Source of the DNA: Armatimonadota bacterium
GTDB taxonomy: Bacteria; Armatimonadota; Fimbriimonadia; Fimbriimonadales; Fimbriimonadaceae
Reading direction: 5' to 3'
NCBI GenBank assembly: GCA_018268355.1
Contig: JAFDWR010000001.1
Span: 539,797-603,796, forward strand
Length of the DNA stretch: 64,000 nucleotides
The notes under the pieces were generated by a model. The model searched no databases and had not been told where the DNA came from. It saw only the letters and a list, made by a program, of their open reading frames with translations. Made by a program: the position numbers and the translations under genes. This document shows, piece by piece, positions 44,409-50,722 of the stretch; the stretch's first letter is position 1, and each line of letters starts with the position of its first letter.

Positions 44409-45089
44409 ATGAAGGTGATTGAGACCCGTGGACTCGCGCGGAAGTTTTTGATGGGAAGCACCGAGGTGCATGCCCTTCGCGGGGTCGACCTCTCGGTTGA
44501 ACAAGGCGAGTTCGTTGCGATCATGGGTCCTTCCGGCTCCGGCAAGTCGACTTTGCTCAATCTCCTTGGCTGCCTTGATCGCCCCACCGGCGGCGAATAC
44601 CTCCTTGCAGGCCGCCCGGTCCAGGACCTTTCCGACCGCGACCTCGCCCAGATGCGCCAAAACCAAATCGGCTTCATTTTCCAGAGTTTCAACCTTCTCC
44701 CCCAGCTTTCCGCCGCCGAAAACGTCGAGCTACCCACGCTCTACCGCGATCAGCCAGCCTCAAGGTCGGTCGCCGAAGTCCTGACGAGCGTTGGACTGGC
44801 GGACCGGATGGATCACCGGCCTCACCAGCTTTCGGGTGGCCAGCAGCAGCGCGTGGCGATCGCCCGTGCCCTGATCAACGAGCCGGTGCTGCTTCTTGCC
44901 GACGAGCCAACAGGCGCGCTGGACTCGAAAACAGGTGAGGAAATGATGGCCCTCCTCGCTGACCTCCACAAGAAGGGCAACACGATCCTCATCGTCACCC
45001 ACGAAGAGGTGATCGCTGAGAAGTGTGAGCGCGTGGTGAAGCTCCGGGACGGCGAAATCGTTTCCGACGAACGCCTAGCGCGCGCGTAG
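44409..45089 (+). CDS. ABC transporter ATP-binding protein, LolD/MacB type
   Basis: The 226-residue ATPase has Walker A GPSGSGKST (40-48), the signature LSGGQQQRVAIARAL, Walker B LLLADEPTGALDSKTG and a switch His in IVTHE. The family of DEPTGALD ATPases pairs with MacB- or LolCE-type permeases for export of lipoproteins, peptides or drugs. No permease lies beside it; the adaptor-like lipoprotein gene is convergent and overlaps it by 15 bp, so a functional link to that gene is plausible but not shown. Confidence 0.94.
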   Translation: MKVIETRGLARKFLMGSTEVHALRGVDLSVEQGEFVAIMGPSGSGKSTLLNLLGCLDRPTGGEYLLAGRPVQDLSDRDLAQMRQNQIGFIFQSFNLLPQLSAAENVELPTLYRDQPASRSVAEVLTSVGLADRMDHRPHQLSGGQQQRVAIARALINEPVLLLADEPTGALDSKTGEEMMALLADLHKKGNTILIVTHEEVIAEKCERVVKLRDGEIVSDERLARA

Positions 45090-46607
45090 AACGAGGACGC
45101 GCTGGTCCGATTCGAGGCCGGAAAGGACTTCCATTCGATCAACCAGATCACGACCAAGCTTCACTTCGCGGAGCTGACCGCCTTGTTCGAGCCGCACGTT
45201 GCCAACCCCAGGACGGATGAACTGAATCGCCCGCTTCGTAAGGGTCACGCGCTTGGTCTGAATTCCGGTGGGGATCATCGCCTTCCCAGCGACGCCCGGC
45301 TTGATCAGGGGTTCGTTGGAGAGGACCTTGATTTCAAGGATCGTATCCGTCGGCTTGGTGCCCGGTTTCAGGTTGAAAACCTTGGCGGGCAGGTCCTTTT
45401 TGGCCATGGAATCGAGCTGGACCGTGAGCGGAGTGCCTGGTTTGAGGTTGATCGCGGTCGGGGTGGGAATCGTCGTGATGAACACGCGGAAATTGGACCG
45501 CGAGACCTTTCCGAGCAAGCTTCCCTCCGCCACCTGGCCCGTCTTGGCGTCCGGAGCGATGAGAACCCCATCCATCGGGCTCGAAATCGTGATCGACCGT
45601 GAACCGGTGCGAATCCGGCCTCGAACGGTCGGGAAAGCGTCGGGCTCGGGCGAAAGCATGGGGCCGCTGATTCCGCCACCGCCATCGGACGGGTACTTCG
45701 CTGCTTCCTTTTGGGCCGCGCTCAGCTCTTCCATTGCCTTGGCGAGCTCTTGCTGGAGCTCTACGGTGACGCTGCTGCCGCCTTGCGAGCGGTTTAGAGC
45801 GGCGGCGGACCGCTTGACCTCGTCATCCAGCCGCTTCTTTTCCTTGCTCAACGTGGCCTCGAGGTCGTCTCGCTGATCCCGTGCTTTGGCCGCCGCCGAT
45901 TTGGCGGCTTCGAGCTGGCGGACCTTGGCATCAAATTCGTTCTGGCTGATCGCGCCCGCGGCGAGGAGCTGGTCGCACTTGTCCTTGTCGCCTTGGATCT
46001 TTTGGGCGAGGCTTTCGGCCTCTTCGACCTTGGCCTCCGCCTCATTTCGACGCCGAGGGTGGTCGACCGAAAGGGCATCCGCAAGGCGCTGGCGAGCAGT
46101 TTCCCATCGGGTCTTGGCCCGCGCGATTTCGCCGTCCGACTTTCGTCCGCCGGAGCGCAGCTCGGTCCGCAACGCTTCCACCTTTTCCTCCGCCGCCTTG
46201 AGGCGGCGCTGAGCCTTGTCCCCAGTGTTCAATTCTTCGGGGATCGAGGCGGGGCGCATCGGCGAGACCGGCGGAAGGCTTGCATACTGCTCGGAGGAAA
46301 TCCCACCGTCATCGCCGCCGCGCGGCGAAACCATGAGGGTTGCAATGACCTGACCCTGCTTCACGGGATCGCCCGACTTGACCGCCCACCGGACAAGAAC
46401 GCCGCTCGAAGGTGCCTTGAGGTCGACGTCGGTCGAGCTCGAAATCAAGCCGCGAACATCGAGGGTGGGCTTGAAAACCTCCACCTTCGACGTTGCGATC
46501 TCAGGTGGAGGCGCTGTGACCACGCTCGGCGCGGGCATGTCGGTCCGGAGCGTGCAACCGCTCAACAGCACCGAACCCAACGCAATCCACGGCCACCGAC
46601 TCTTCAT
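45075..46607 (-). CDS. Periplasmic adaptor (HlyD/MacA-like) lipoprotein
   Basis: The 510-residue protein has a lipobox LLSGC (Cys18) and a biotinyl-lipoyl-like hairpin at about 62-90 (LKAPSSGVLVRWAVKSGDPVKQGQVIATL). A long coiled coil spans about 125-320, with high Lys/Glu/Ala content. A second lipoyl half (TISSPMDGVLIAPDAKTGQVAEGSLLG) and a beta-barrel/membrane-proximal domain follow to the end. This is the layout of membrane-fusion adaptors that link an inner-membrane pump to an outer-membrane channel. The ATG at 46607 starts the lipoprotein signal; the longer open frame does not. Confidence 0.85.
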   Translation of the reverse strand: MKSRWPWIALGSVLLSGCTLRTDMPAPSVVTAPPPEIATSKVEVFKPTLDVRGLISSSTDVDLKAPSSGVLVRWAVKSGDPVKQGQVIATLMVSPRGGDDGGISSEQYASLPPVSPMRPASIPEELNTGDKAQRRLKAAEEKVEALRTELRSGGRKSDGEIARAKTRWETARQRLADALSVDHPRRRNEAEAKVEEAESLAQKIQGDKDKCDQLLAAGAISQNEFDAKVRQLEAAKSAAAKARDQRDDLEATLSKEKKRLDDEVKRSAAALNRSQGGSSVTVELQQELAKAMEELSAAQKEAAKYPSDGGGGISGPMLSPEPDAFPTVRGRIRTGSRSITISSPMDGVLIAPDAKTGQVAEGSLLGKVSRSNFRVFITTIPTPTAINLKPGTPLTVQLDSMAKKDLPAKVFNLKPGTKPTDTILEIKVLSNEPLIKPGVAGKAMIPTGIQTKRVTLTKRAIQFIRPGVGNVRLEQGGQLREVKLGRDLVDRMEVLSGLESDQRVLVLRAR

Positions 46608-46660
46608 CCAACTATATACAACGTTGAAAACGCCTTTTGCGTTCAACGCTCGGGAGGGTC

Positions 46661-47200
46661 CTAGGCCACAATCGTGCTGGATTTGAACTCTTCGAACTGC
46701 GGCAGATAGTCCTGCCAATCCGCACGCCCAATCGCCTTCAGGTACGTCGGCAGCGCGAGGTACGGGATGAAATGCGGTCGCTTCGGCCGTCGGAAGAGCT
46801 TCATCTGTGCCTGCTGGGGCGTCTTGTCACCCTTGGCTAGGTTGCAGCGGCGGCAGCACGCGACGAGGTTATCCCACGTGTGCGGCCCGCCCACCCAACG
46901 CGGGATGACGTGGTCGATCGTGAGGTCCTTCTTCGACCCGCAGTATTGGCACGTGTAGTTGTCGCGAGCAAGGATTGAATGTCGCGAGAGTCGAAGCTCG
47001 GGCATCGGCCTTCGGACCATGTACTTCATTCGCAGCACCGAAGGCGCGAAGAGCTCGCCGCTCCCGGTTCGGATCGGCTCACCGCGTTCTTCCATCACGT
47101 CGGCCTTGCCTAGCAGCAGCAGGGCAAACGCTCGTCGCAAGTTGCAGACGTTGAGCGGTTCATAGTTGCTGTTCAATACGAGTACGTCGTGCGGTCCCAA
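46661..47200 (-). CDS. HNH endonuclease family protein
   Basis: The 179-residue protein has an N-terminal region VLVLNSNYEPLNVCNLRRAFALLLLGKADV that is typical of stand-alone HNH proteins. Its HNH domain (about 78-125) has CQYC (Cys84, Cys87), the catalytic Asp96-His97 in IDHVIPRWVGG, Asn111, and CRRCN (Cys116, Cys119, Asn120). Such genes are widespread and chromosomal, and their role is unclear. GAGGAG lies 6 nt before ATG. A 59-residue ORF and a terminator-like hairpin lie immediately upstream on the same strand, suggesting read-through control. Confidence 0.92.
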   Translation of the reverse strand: MGPHDVLVLNSNYEPLNVCNLRRAFALLLLGKADVMEERGEPIRTGSGELFAPSVLRMKYMVRRPMPELRLSRHSILARDNYTCQYCGSKKDLTIDHVIPRWVGGPHTWDNLVACCRRCNLAKGDKTPQQAQMKLFRRPKRPHFIPYLALPTYLKAIGRADWQDYLPQFEEFKSSTIVA

Positions 47201-47210
47201 TGGCTTCTCC

Positions 47211-47390
47211 TCAGTTCAAATGGCTTTTTTCCAGGCGTATGAATTGGTCGAGATCAGTGACAAAAAAGGGTCCGGCGTGAAACGGCCCGGACCCCATGCT
47301 GCTCGCAGTCATGCCACGAGCTATCATGGTGTCCACCCAAGCGGGCGGCCATTGCATGAACGGATTCTGTCCTTGATCAAGACTTCGCAT
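47211..47390 (-). CDS. Possible 59-residue leader or small protein upstream of the HNH gene
   Basis: An ATG at 47390, preceded on the minus strand by AAAGAAAGGAC, opens a 59-codon frame. It begins MRSLDQGQNPFMQWPPAWVD and ends KSHLN 10 nt before the HNH start. No homolog is recognised. A perfect intrinsic-terminator hairpin lies inside its coding sequence (47267-47295). It may be a leader peptide for attenuation, a genuine small protein, or a chance frame; I favour a regulatory leader but cannot prove it. Confidence 0.4.
   Translation of the reverse strand: MRSLDQGQNPFMQWPPAWVDTMIARGMTASSMGSGPFHAGPFFVTDLDQFIRLEKSHLN
47267..47295 (-). terminator. Terminator-like hairpin within the HNH leader
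   Basis: On the minus strand the 8-bp stem GGGTCCGG...CCGGACCC with an 11-nt loop is followed directly by six T. No complete gene ends upstream of it, so it appears to terminate transcription before the HNH gene unless antiterminated. Confidence 0.75.
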
Positions 47391-47504
47391 GTCCTTCTTT
47401 CCTACCGACGTACAAATCCACCAAAACGGATTCGCACCTCGCGAAAAATTCTCCCTTTCAACTAAGTTTCCGCCAGTTTCTTTGCACTCGGCTACCAGGT
47501 TTTG

Positions 47505-47518
47505 TTAAGGGCCCTTAA
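47505..47518. promoter_or_regulatory. Perfect 14-bp palindrome between the divergent HNH leader and small gene
   Basis: TTAAGGGCCCTTAA is a perfect palindrome located 77 bp upstream of the small gene start and 115 bp upstream of the leader ORF. Its symmetry and its place in the divergent intergenic region suggest a dimeric-regulator operator. Confidence 0.45.
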
Positions 47519-47581
47519 TCTTCGGGATCAAAACGGCACGAATTCTGTCAGATTAATTGCGGTAACGCAAAGGAGGCAACC

Positions 47582-47800
47582 ATGGAGTTCATCCACAATG
47601 GGTTGCAACTGAGCGAAGAGGAAGCGTACGCCCTGTTGAGTTTGTGTTTGACAAGCCCGCAGGCGCTCGACGCGGCCTCAGAAAAAGCGGTTCGGAAATT
47701 GGCAGGATACGCAACGGCCTTGCGCCAGAGTCATCATCATCATTCAACTGCCGTTTGCCCCGCTTTGGAGCTAAAGTTGAACCGGACGGGGACCAATTAG
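47582..47800 (+). CDS. Small hypothetical protein, 72 residues
   Basis: A strong AGGAGG lies 5 nt before ATG, directly after a 5-bp hairpin with a GTAA tetraloop (47557-47570). The protein has a helical N-terminal part (GLQLSEEEAYALLSLCLTSPQALDAASEKAVRKLAGYAT) and a His-rich stretch SHHHHS near residue 52. No family is recognised. The TAG stop codon sits at the end of the loop of an intrinsic terminator, so the gene is a compact, clearly defined transcription unit. Confidence 0.7.
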   Translation: MEFIHNGLQLSEEEAYALLSLCLTSPQALDAASEKAVRKLAGYATALRQSHHHHSTAVCPALELKLNRTGTN

Positions 47801-47813
47801 GTCCCCGTTTTTC
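47786..47813 (+). terminator. Intrinsic terminator overlapping the stop codon of the 72-residue gene
   Basis: A 9-bp stem (47786-47794 and 47800-47808) with loop AATTA is followed by TTTTTC. The UAG stop codon spans the loop/stem junction, so a terminating ribosome would cover the left arm. Confidence 0.85.
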
Positions 47814-47830
47814 TTGTATTCTGGTCACTC

Positions 47831-48916
47831 ATGATCAGGGTTGCCGACGTCCTCCACCAGCTTGAGTCGATTGCTCCGAGACGCTACGCGTTTGGGTTCG
47901 ACAAGGTCGGCTTGCAAGTGGGCGACCGTTCCGCTCCCGTCGCCAAGGCGGTGGTGTCGCTCGACCGGTCCCTCGGGGCGATCCGCTTTGCCGCTGACCA
48001 CGGTGCCCAACTCCTGATTGCTCACCACCCGGCGATCTGGGACCCGCTCAAGAGCGTCCTTGCGGGTGATCCCGTCTTTGAGCTTATTCGGGCGAATGTC
48101 TCGTTCATTGCCGCTCACACGAGTTGGGATGTCGCACGGGGTGGCGTGAATGACACCCTTGCCGAAGTGCTGGGTCTCACCGACGTTGTTGACTTTGGTC
48201 AGCGACCCGAAACCCACCTGCTGAAGCTCGTCTTCACCGCGCCCAGTGCGGACTCGGAGAGGGTCATCGCCGCCGCAGCGGCGGCAGGAGCGGGAAGGCT
48301 TGGGAGCTATGATTCCTGTGCGTTTTCGAGTCAGGGCACGGGCCAGTTTCGCGCCCTCGATGACGCAAATCCCCACGTTGGGAAGGTGGGCGAGGTCCAC
48401 CAAGAGCCCGAAACCCGCGTCGAGATGATCCTGCCGACCGGGTTGCAACTCGCGGTTGATACCGCCGTCCGCAGAGCCCACCCTTACGAGACGCCCGCGA
48501 TCGACTACTTCCCTCTTTCCAACCCCGGCGAACTTCCGATTGGTCGGATTGGATCCCTTGCCCATGCGGTTACCCTCGCCGGCTTCTCCGCAACCGTCGC
48601 AAACCGACTCGGTCATCCACCCCTCGTCTGGGGCGAACCTAAGCGGCTCATCAAAAAGGTCGCGGTGGTCGGCGGCGCGGCAGACGGCGAATGGCAGGAA
48701 GCCGCCCGAGCGGGGGCCGACTGCTTCGTCACCGGCGAGGTCCGCCAGAACATCGCGGTCGATTCGACAATCCCGATCATGGCCGCTGGACACTATGCGA
48801 CCGAACAGCCCGGCGTCCGTGCCCTGCGCGACCGACTCCATGCGGCGATCCCCGAGGTCGAGTGGCTGCTTTTCACGCCGGAACCAGGCTTCGACGGGCG
48901 TCCCTTCGTGCCCTAG
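47831..48916 (+). CDS. NIF3/YbgI (DUF34) family protein
   Basis: The 361-residue protein has the family start VADVLHQLESIAPRRYAFGFDKVGLQVGD. The metal-binding IAHHPAIWDPLKS (His pair near residue 75), the AHTSWDVARGGVND segment and a C-terminal VTGEVRQNI...AGHYATEQPG with further metal ligands are also present. A central insert (about 125-235) holds a CutA-like/PII-type fold (LVFTAPSADSERVIAAAAAAGAGRLGSYDSC). Proteins of this family form dimetal hexamers of uncertain function and are often mislabelled as GTP cyclohydrolase 1 type 2. A TATTCT box lies 8 nt before ATG. Confidence 0.93.
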   Translation: MIRVADVLHQLESIAPRRYAFGFDKVGLQVGDRSAPVAKAVVSLDRSLGAIRFAADHGAQLLIAHHPAIWDPLKSVLAGDPVFELIRANVSFIAAHTSWDVARGGVNDTLAEVLGLTDVVDFGQRPETHLLKLVFTAPSADSERVIAAAAAAGAGRLGSYDSCAFSSQGTGQFRALDDANPHVGKVGEVHQEPETRVEMILPTGLQLAVDTAVRRAHPYETPAIDYFPLSNPGELPIGRIGSLAHAVTLAGFSATVANRLGHPPLVWGEPKRLIKKVAVVGGAADGEWQEAARAGADCFVTGEVRQNIAVDSTIPIMAAGHYATEQPGVRALRDRLHAAIPEVEWLLFTPEPGFDGRPFVP

Positions 48917-48935
48917 CGGGTAAGTTGAGGACGCA

Positions 48936-49919
48936 ATGAAGTTCACCTCTCTCGGTCGTACCGGTCTCCAAGTCAGCCGCCTTTGCCTCGGCACGATGAA
49001 CTTTGGTGTCGACACCACCAAAGAAGACGCCTTCCGCATCATGGACCGCGCCCTTGAGCTCGGGATCAACTTCTTTGACACGGCCGACGTTTACGGCTGG
49101 AAGAAGGGCGAAGGCATCACCGAGAGGATCATCGGCGAGTGGTTTGCCCTCGGCGGCGGTCGGCGCGAGCGCGTCGTCATCGCAACCAAGCTCTATGGCG
49201 ACATGGGGAACGGCCCCCTCGAGAACTGGCCGAACACGAATCGCGTCACTGCGCTTCACCTTCGCCGCGCCTGCGATGCCAGCCTTGCTCGCCTCCAGAC
49301 CGACTACATCGACCTCTATCAGATGCACCACATCTTTCGCGTCGCGCCGTGGGACGAGGTGTGGGAGGCCTACGAAGTGCTCCGCTATCAAGGCAAGATC
49401 CTCTATGCCGGTTCGAGCAACTTCGCCGCGTGGCACATCGTCCAGGCGAACGAAGCCGCGAAGCGCCGCAACTTCCTTGGCCTCGTGAGCGAGCAGTCGA
49501 AGTTCTCGCTCCTCCAGCGCGACATCGAGCTCGAAGTCGGTCCTGCCTGCGAAGCCTATGGCGTGGGCGTGATTCCGTGGTCGCCGCTCGCGGGCGGTGT
49601 GCTCGGCGGCGTGAGTGAAGGTGCAGGCGGCGTCCGACGGCGATCGGATTGGGCTCTAAAGGTCGCCGAGAAGCACGCCGATGGCCTCGCGAAGTGGGAA
49701 GCACTCTGCAAGGAGCTGGGCGAGCAGCCCGCCGATGTTGCCCTTGGCTGGACGCTCACCCGCAGCTTTGTGACCGCGCCGATCATCGGTCCTCGAACGA
49801 TGGATCAGCTCGAAGGCAGCCTCCGCGCCTTGGAAATCGAGTTCACGCCCGAAGTCCTTGCCGCGATTGACGAGATCTTCCCTGGGTTCAAGACCGCTCC
49901 CGAGCACTACGCTTGGTAA
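48936..49919 (+). CDS. Aldo/keto reductase
   Basis: The 327-residue enzyme is an NADPH-dependent aldo/keto reductase. It begins with MKFTSLGRTGLQVSRLCLGTMNFG and has the catalytic set Asp/Tyr in FFDTADVYG, Lys in VVIATKLYG and His in LYQMHHIF. The phosphate-binding C-terminal TAPIIGPRTMDQLEGSL is also present. It resembles the YghZ/YajO-like group; the substrate is unknown. TTGAGGA lies about 6 nt before the ATG. It is 20 bp after the NIF3-family gene and may be co-transcribed. Confidence 0.94.
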   Translation: MKFTSLGRTGLQVSRLCLGTMNFGVDTTKEDAFRIMDRALELGINFFDTADVYGWKKGEGITERIIGEWFALGGGRRERVVIATKLYGDMGNGPLENWPNTNRVTALHLRRACDASLARLQTDYIDLYQMHHIFRVAPWDEVWEAYEVLRYQGKILYAGSSNFAAWHIVQANEAAKRRNFLGLVSEQSKFSLLQRDIELEVGPACEAYGVGVIPWSPLAGGVLGGVSEGAGGVRRRSDWALKVAEKHADGLAKWEALCKELGEQPADVALGWTLTRSFVTAPIIGPRTMDQLEGSLRALEIEFTPEVLAAIDEIFPGFKTAPEHYAW

Positions 49920-49981
49920 GCCAAACTACCAAACTCGTCCGTCCTTGCCTATAATGGGTTCGACAACAGGAGAGAACTGAC

Positions 49982-50722
49982 TTGCCGCGAGTTGTAAGAA
50001 AATCTGACGCGATCGAAAACCTTTGGGCAGACGCCATGCCCATGTTCCTTGGCGGAGTGCCCATGATCCTTTTGGGCGCCCTGCTTTGGAAGTTCAAAGG
50101 AGATGGTGCGCTCGTGGGTCTCGCGGCGGTCCTTATCCTTGGTGGAGTTGGGCTTATCGCTTGGGGGTTCACCAAGGTCCGGAAGGTCAAAGAAATCGGC
50201 CCTGGCCACATGCTGGAGTGCGTTTTCTGCTCCCGCCAGATCGAGCTCTTGGAGCCACCTTCCAACGAAGACGTCACCTGCCCCGAGTGCCACCGCCTCA
50301 TTCCGATCCAGAACGGTGTGCCCCTTCCCGTTCACCAGGTTCGCTGCGGCTTCTGCAACACGCTGAACTACTACAGTGAAAAGACCGAGTTTCTGATCTG
50401 CGAGAAGTGCGACCGCGAAATCCCGCTCACGCTTGATGAGGACAAGGAGCAACGTCACGCACCTAAAGGCTATGTCGTCGTCGATGACAACCAGGCGTAT
50501 CAGTTGGTGCTGAGAGAAGTCCCGAATCCGGACCACCCACCGGAGGACTGCATCACGACACTCCAGACCATGCTCGCGCTGAACCGAAACCAGGTCAAGC
50601 AGCTGCTGGGTGACCTTCCCGCCGTGCTTCTAACGGGCATCCCAAGAAAGAAAGCTGAGCTCCTTGAAGCTCAGCTCACTTCCCTCGGCATGACCGCCGT
50701 CCACGAACCGATCTCAAACTAG
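49982..50722 (+). CDS. Membrane protein with zinc ribbons and an L7/L12-C-terminal-like domain
   Basis: The 246-residue protein starts with TTG behind AGGAGAG. Two transmembrane helices (about 21-37 and 42-63) are followed by two Cys pairs in a ribbon (CVFC...CPEC) and a second set (CGFC...CEKC), both likely to bind zinc. The C-terminal 50 residues (LNRNQVKQLLGDLPAVLLTGIPRKKAELLEAQLTSLGMTAVHE) resemble the C-terminal domain of ribosomal protein L7/L12. The combination suggests a membrane-anchored regulator or translation-linked factor, but no function is known. Its stop overlaps that of etfA by 4 bp. Confidence 0.7.
   Translation: MPRVVRKSDAIENLWADAMPMFLGGVPMILLGALLWKFKGDGALVGLAAVLILGGVGLIAWGFTKVRKVKEIGPGHMLECVFCSRQIELLEPPSNEDVTCPECHRLIPIQNGVPLPVHQVRCGFCNTLNYYSEKTEFLICEKCDREIPLTLDEDKEQRHAPKGYVVVDDNQAYQLVLREVPNPDHPPEDCITTLQTMLALNRNQVKQLLGDLPAVLLTGIPRKKAELLEAQLTSLGMTAVHEPISN

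Follow-up and report, generated by a model that had tools for sequence, protein, structure and literature searches.

A gene for a free-standing HNH nuclease in an Armatimonadota bacterium is preceded by a short open reading frame that contains an intrinsic terminator, and the question raised by this locus is whether translation of that small frame decides if the nuclease gene is transcribed at all. The locus lies in a stretch of 64,000 nucleotides of contig JAFDWR010000001.1, here called the window, and all coordinates refer to it.

The leader of the HNH nuclease gene

The HNH nuclease gene is located on the minus strand (47200–46661, with a TTG start at 47200–47198) and encodes a protein of 179 amino acids that matches the Pfam families PF14279 and PF01844. 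Directly upstream, on the same strand, is a leader ORF of 59 codons (uORF; 47390–47211), which begins with ATG and ends with a TGA codon (47213–47211) overlapping the HNH Shine–Dalgarno sequence GAGGAG, read from the sequence at 47212–47207. A sequence-only reading of this DNA had placed the uORF stop 10 nt before the HNH start, and this distance was borne out. The same reading had described an 8-bp GC stem followed by six T inside the 59-codon ORF, and all of these details were found to be right (47294–47262, minus strand). The hairpin (47294–47268) is composed of the 5′ arm GGGTCCGG (47294–47287), an 11-nt loop (47286–47276) and the 3′ arm CCGGACCC (47275–47268), and runs directly into the T tract TTTTTT (47267–47262). 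Its stem of eight GC-rich pairs was assigned −17.7 kcal/mol by our own hairpin scan; a consensus terminator scan, with a loop limit of 8 nt against the 11 nt present here, did not return it. Upstream of the hairpin the uORF encodes the conserved motif WPPAWVDTMIAR (47351–47316), which, like the distribution of the system across the phylum described below, goes beyond that reading in bringing conserved Trp, Pro and AUA codons into the leader.

The uORF had no match in Pfam, NCBIfam or PADLOC, and an Rfam scan of the window at gathering score returned two tRNAs and nothing else, hence no known cis-regulatory RNA family. The whole window leader folded mildly better than its shuffles (z −1.75). 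No clear promoter for the leader was seen in the window, and a sigma-70 consensus scan of positions 45000–50000 gave no sigma-70-like site.

Conservation of the leader peptide

Of 61 genomes of the order Fimbriimonadales, to which the window belongs, 59 have an orthologue of the HNH nuclease, and the nuclease was found in 181 of 201 Armatimonadota genomes, the window's own genome being included in both counts. By its named matches among GTDB species, the nuclease belongs to Fimbriimonadaceae/Fimbriimonadales within the Armatimonadota. A search with the 59-aa uORF peptide produced weak matches, the best two (7.8e-4 and 0.005) lying directly before HNH in G011 and G021, and because of this position all 59 HNH leaders were compared. 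These comprised 35 leaders from the window's own family, Fimbriimonadaceae (f1), and 24 from the sister families (f2–f5). The pattern [WR]PPxWxDTIIR was encoded before HNH in 28 of the 35 f1 leaders, and RWSTGSWF or a close variant in 22 of the 24 sister-family leaders, so that 50 of 59 leaders carried one or other motif; by the pattern used, neither was present in the remaining nine (G004, G005, G008, G015, G025, G029, G036, G039 and G040). The search pattern itself required the invariant Trp, and Trp counts should be read with this in mind: 10 of 28 f1 motifs begin with a second Trp codon, and two Trp codons were present in 22 of 22 f2–f5 motifs. The motif at the DNA level was confined to HNH leaders, and each of the five matches obtained from 41 genomes lay a short way upstream of HNH.

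Variation within the motif was largely synonymous. All four codons were used for Pro and for Thr, several for Arg, and Ser switched between TCN and AGY. In the motif frame, amino-acid identity was 0.470 among the 27 distinct f1 cores, compared with 0.418 for the best of 1000 column permutations, and 0.889 among the 19 distinct f2–f5 cores, compared with 0.837 for the best of 1000 permutations. In the +1 and +2 frames of both groups, identity did not rise above the column permutations. The dependence of the variation on codon position, together with the serine codon-class switches, indicates that conservation acts at the level of the peptide. A non-coding RNA element was also considered for the conserved block and rejected, since the variation follows codon positions and the Rfam scan of the window found only tRNAs. 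In a further set of leaders, those identical to earlier ones were dropped and 32 were kept. Separately, many f2 leaders, L070 and L063 for example, have a TATAATAT box a few nucleotides before the uORF ATG, so close that the f2 leader mRNA may be nearly leaderless.

The rare Ile codon of the f1 motif was quantified by comparing codon counts in leaders and genes. In the window the codon is AUA at 47324–47322 (minus strand), and across the 28 f1 leaders 35 of 38 motif Ile codons were AUA, whereas stretches of f1 HNH genes used it for 2 of 167 Ile codons and seven window genes for none of 136. This bias suggests selection for a slow codon, and points to selection for a rare codon within a regulatory ORF. 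Alternatively, the conserved ATA may reflect a signal at the nucleotide level rather than a codon effect; in L090 and L146, two leaders that may be one organism, ATA is out of frame, an argument against explaining it by codon choice alone. A promoter lying within GATAATACG was considered and dropped, as ATA stays in frame in most variants and a −10 box need not do so.

Conservation of the terminator

Terminators were scored by a rule requiring a stem of at least −15 kcal/mol and at least four T in seven, within 160 nt. In the window, terminators of at least −15 kcal/mol were present in 38 of 842 tiles of 152 nt, so that a single terminator at the position of the window leader would be uncommon, yet unremarkable. 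What places it beyond chance is its conservation: by the same rule a terminator was found in 29 of 35 f1 leaders and 21 of 24 sister-family leaders. Conservation of the small ORF and the hairpin in relatives had been proposed as a check by the sequence-only reading, and it was observed for both, the peptide motif and the hairpin each being present in 50 of 59 leaders. Opposite-strand sequence satisfied the rule in only 2 of 35 f1 and 1 of 24 f2–f5 leaders, and same-strand windows further upstream did so in 3 of 124 (f1) and 4 of 48 (f2–f5), or 7 of 172 together. A looser rule based on the T run raised the count to 53 of 59, including weak hairpins in G039 and G040 and a hit in the wrong place in G042, so 50 of 59 is the stricter count; under the looser rule no hairpin was found in G003, G023, G025, G030, G032 and G046.

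The nearest likely long upstream gene, judged by a codon-composition heuristic, was divergent in many genomes, which argues that the hairpin is not in general simply the end of an upstream gene. As a harder control gene, the neighbouring NIF3 was examined and its leaders contained a hairpin in 11 of 30 cases, which shows that other genes too can be preceded by a terminator. The NIF3 hairpins often follow a small conserved co-directional gene, and this control is therefore less clean than the upstream windows.

Arrangement of the uORF and terminator

The relation between frame and hairpin was examined in the 45 leaders that have both motif and terminator. The motif frame remained open past the terminator in 44 of these, compared with 22 and 33 for the two alternative frames read from the same point. 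In 47 of 50 leaders its first stop fell at −25 to +20 relative to the HNH match start, against 8 and 15 in the other frames, and in many f2 genomes the uORF overlaps the HNH start. The distance from motif start to hairpin was 47–61 nt (median 55) in f1 and 64–78 nt (median 72) in f2–f5. Exceptions in which the uORF stop lies inside the hairpin were G046, G050 and the extra f1 leaders L088, L089, L090 and L146.

The geometry had been said to fit transcription attenuation, and the comparison supports this claim, with the uORF frame spanning the hairpin in 44 of 45 leaders, in the arrangement of E. coli pyrL. A promoter between hairpin and HNH gene, which would speak against attenuation, was not found by the sigma-70 consensus scan, and only 24–72 nt separate the terminator from the HNH match start in 45 relatives. 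It could be that the hairpin marks where a separate small transcript ends, and that HNH is transcribed from a promoter of its own further downstream. The terminator itself is indeed there, but this short gap and the empty scan, which was limited to the sigma-70 type, make such an arrangement highly improbable.

Possible pairing between the leader and the terminator

The possibility of an antiterminator was explored by asking whether the 5′ arm of each terminator is more complementary to the leader it belongs to than to other leaders; G032, a near-duplicate of G003 with no hairpin hit, was skipped and G042 was left out. In f1, no excess complementarity was detected for the motif (p 0.49), for the segment from motif to hairpin (p 0.09) or for the whole leader (p 0.11), and a conserved antiterminator is thus not supported in the window's family. 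In f2–f5, the motif seemed complementary to the 5′ arm beyond permutation (p 0.0004, or 0.008 after removal of eight leaders from one genus), an excess that relatedness among the genomes can produce. Such complementarity would allow an antiterminator in the sister families, and the sign of a stall could be reversed there. Nascent leaders folded mildly better than shuffles, with mean z values of −1.0 and −1.6 (G042 left out), and in the window leader the 5′ arm can pair with the upstream leader (arm pairing 0.83 free in G000).

Leaders of other families

Forty HNH-bearing genomes from other Armatimonadota families were chosen by hand, with at least one per family. A terminator preceded HNH in 34 of these 40 representatives, compared with 5 of 40 on the opposite strand and 1 of 38 upstream windows, and the leader peptides of these families looked unrelated. 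Two of the families, f21 and f12, were covered in greater depth. In f21, seven of nine leaders (L216–L219 and L221–L223) encode a SLRxLEDGxC peptide before the HNH terminator, and in all seven its stop falls between 4 nt before and 14 nt inside the start of the hairpin. The 14 leaders of f12 (L225–L238) have His-rich stretches of the HLHHLHH type near the hairpin; the best 15 codons held a mean of 4.4 His (range 1 to 7), while the mean was 1.43 in 112 controls and 1.4 on the reverse strand.

Among 38 named HNH leaders from outside the phylum, a set from which L173, L191 and the Armatimonadota leader L178 had been left out, a comparable hairpin was present in five, against 5 of 152 controls, a weak signal. 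The Acidobacteria leaders L192, L196 and L199, the last of them weak, have a hairpin with a T tail approximately 35 nt before the gene, and judging from these leaders the arrangement may extend beyond the Armatimonadota.

Comparison with known attenuators

The E. coli leaders pyrL, trpL and hisL were measured with the same kind of script as yardsticks. The pyrL terminator occupies −47 to −27 relative to the leader stop, whereas those of trpL and hisL begin only beyond the stop, at +42 and +61 respectively. In the window the terminator occupies −85 to −56 and the HNH gene begins at +10, and the terminator start lies between −102 and −41 in 24 f1 leaders and between −95 and −15 in 20 f2–f5 leaders (G042 left out). 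The likeness is to the pyrBI attenuator, in which the pyrL ORF spans the intrinsic terminator and ends a few nucleotides before the structural gene. The pyrL system senses UTP via polymerase pausing, and has a U-rich pause region before its terminator. No run of at least four T occurs between motif and hairpin on the minus strand of the window, and the window leader, lacking such a pause region, would accordingly be described as working like pyrL but is not classed as a UTP-sensing member. In contrast to pyrL, the HNH leader carries a Pro/Trp/AUA motif, its peptide is conserved as amino acids, and the gene that it would control encodes a nuclease.

For pyrL, a ribosome close behind RNA polymerase is reported to suppress termination, and in the experiments of Elgamal et al. 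2016 a polyproline stall before the pyrL terminator raised termination in E. coli lacking EF-P (PMC5021804). The reporter described there, which joins a stall motif to the pyrL terminator and in which a slower ribosome led to more termination, resembles the f1 leaders in having Pro-Pro upstream of a terminator in a translated ORF. That construct is synthetic, contains six prolines and gave its effect in E. coli without EF-P (PMC5021804), whereas the HNH leaders are natural and those of the sister families have no Pro-Pro. The antibiotic- or stress-sensing TopAI-YjhQ and vmlR leaders (PMC12121999, PMC9226507) are similar in that a short ORF monitors translation and thereby sets the expression of the gene behind it. 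However, stalled ribosomes or inhibitors of translation turn such leaders on, while the geometry of the HNH leader argues for the opposite sign and its gene encodes a free-standing nuclease. Searches of open-licence PMC turned up no report of attenuation in the leader of an HNH gene, nor of any leader peptide or attenuator in the Armatimonadota.

A model for translation-coupled attenuation, and alternatives

The comparison of leaders establishes, at the level of sequence, a conserved peptide that bears the marks of translation, a conserved terminator, a frame open through that terminator and a fixed spacing. One interpretation of these data, and the one that we judge rather likely, is that the HNH leader is a translation-coupled transcription attenuator. 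RNA polymerase would transcribe the leader with a ribosome translating the 59-codon uORF behind it, and this ribosome would have to cross a slow motif made up of Pro-Pro, Trp codons and the rare AUA. If it entered the hairpin segment in time, the terminator could not fold and transcription would read through into HNH; the uORF stop that overlaps the HNH Shine–Dalgarno sequence may also couple translation of the two frames. If the ribosome failed to start, lagged, or stalled at the motif, the hairpin would fold and transcription would end at ~47262. With AUA in its A site, the front edge of the ribosome would stand ~14 nt short of the hairpin, as estimated from the median spacing of 55 nt and a standard footprint. 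The Pro-Pro/Trp/AUA motif of f1 looks, by analogy, like a natural brake of the polyproline-stall kind. The pyrL-type arrangement and the polyproline-stall result (PMC5021804), as described there, favour complete translation giving read-through and slow or absent translation giving termination; for the window, we infer the sign of the stall effect in this way. Termination at the hairpin would then be real, translation would be the ON signal, and the leader would sense the supply of charged tRNA or the speed of translation.

The opposite sign is that of the trp and his attenuators, in which ribosome stalling switches expression on. During amino-acid shortage, a ribosome waiting at a Trp, AUA or His codon would then allow an antiterminator to form, and the nuclease would be induced by starvation. 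The HNH leaders do share with trpL and hisL the presence of rare-amino-acid codons in a short leader ORF before a terminator, with two Trp codons in many motifs and the His-rich stretches of f12 (4.4 against 1.43 in the 112 controls), and such a mechanism would also draw on the excess complementarity between motif and terminator in f2–f5 and on the foldable 5′ arm of the window leader, with its upstream pairing (0.83 free in G000). However, the f1–f5 leader stop lies at or beyond the terminator, whereas in trpL and hisL the stop precedes it by 42–61 nt, the HNH nuclease is not an amino-acid biosynthesis enzyme, and the window's family shows no complementarity excess that would support an antiterminator (motif p 0.49, whole leader p 0.11). 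We therefore regard starvation induction of this kind as unlikely.

Another possibility is that the uORF encodes an ordinary small protein, for instance one that partners or inhibits the nuclease, and is followed at its end by a partly active terminator. Its position directly before HNH, its conserved peptide and its codon pattern of translated sequence would all be expected of such a gene. Conservation is, however, limited to approximately 8–11 codons, the peptides of the other families look unrelated, and the hairpin lies inside the ORF rather than after its end and largely determines the sequence of the second half, which renders a small protein gene improbable. Little more can be said for translational coupling on its own, in which the uORF would serve simply to bring ribosomes to the start of HNH, with the hairpin weak or unused as a terminator. 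The overlap of the uORF stop with the HNH Shine–Dalgarno sequence in the window, and of the uORF with the HNH start in many f2 genomes, would suit this explanation, but the hairpin and its T-rich tail are conserved on the coding strand only and persist in those families, too, whose leader ORF ends ahead of or within the hairpin; its probability is slight.

Distribution and significance

Attenuators are best known from the biosynthetic and resistance operons of model bacteria. The HNH leader would be one that is kept across a phylum with hardly any experimental genetics, while the leader peptides differ by family. Judging from the leaders compared, attenuation before HNH is probably phylum-wide, and the conserved translated leader with an internal terminator suggests a new variant of translation-coupled attenuation. 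A bolder reading, offered tentatively and as one that may well prove too broad, is of a phylum-wide gate on translation speed, by which nearly every Armatimonadota lineage would license a single free-standing HNH nuclease by requiring that translation of a leader peptide reach or cross the terminator. The brake codons would have been swapped and the gate kept, the candidate brakes being Trp with Pro-Pro and AUA, Trp pairs, His runs and, equally tentatively, the LEDGxC peptide. If this were true, the input would be overall ribosome speed or the supply of aminoacyl-tRNA and not a single amino acid. The leader gives a direct clue to when a conserved nuclease is made, and the family-specific leaders form a natural series for asking whether exchangeable slow codons serve one regulatory logic.

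The nuclease and its neighbours

In NCBIfam, the top similarity of the HNH nuclease was to the HNH part of IscB, below cutoff. The HNH domain (46661–47200, minus strand) gave its best scores, also below cutoff, against IscB and Cas9d HNH models, and the best solved structure by profile was an IscB (9k30). A gene for an HlyD-type membrane fusion protein (46607–45075, minus strand) has its apparent start ~53 nt past the HNH stop. As it lies close behind HNH on the same strand and is perhaps co-transcribed, the leader could control this gene too.

On the plus strand, a 72-aa ORF (47582–47815) encodes HHHH near its end, and its stop codon is located in the loop of a strong terminator just before NIF3 (47831). 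The 72-aa protein is conserved, 46 of 61 genomes having given a match at E <= 0.5, often beside NIF3, and a stop-like triplet is present in the loop of the hairpin before NIF3 in several relatives too.
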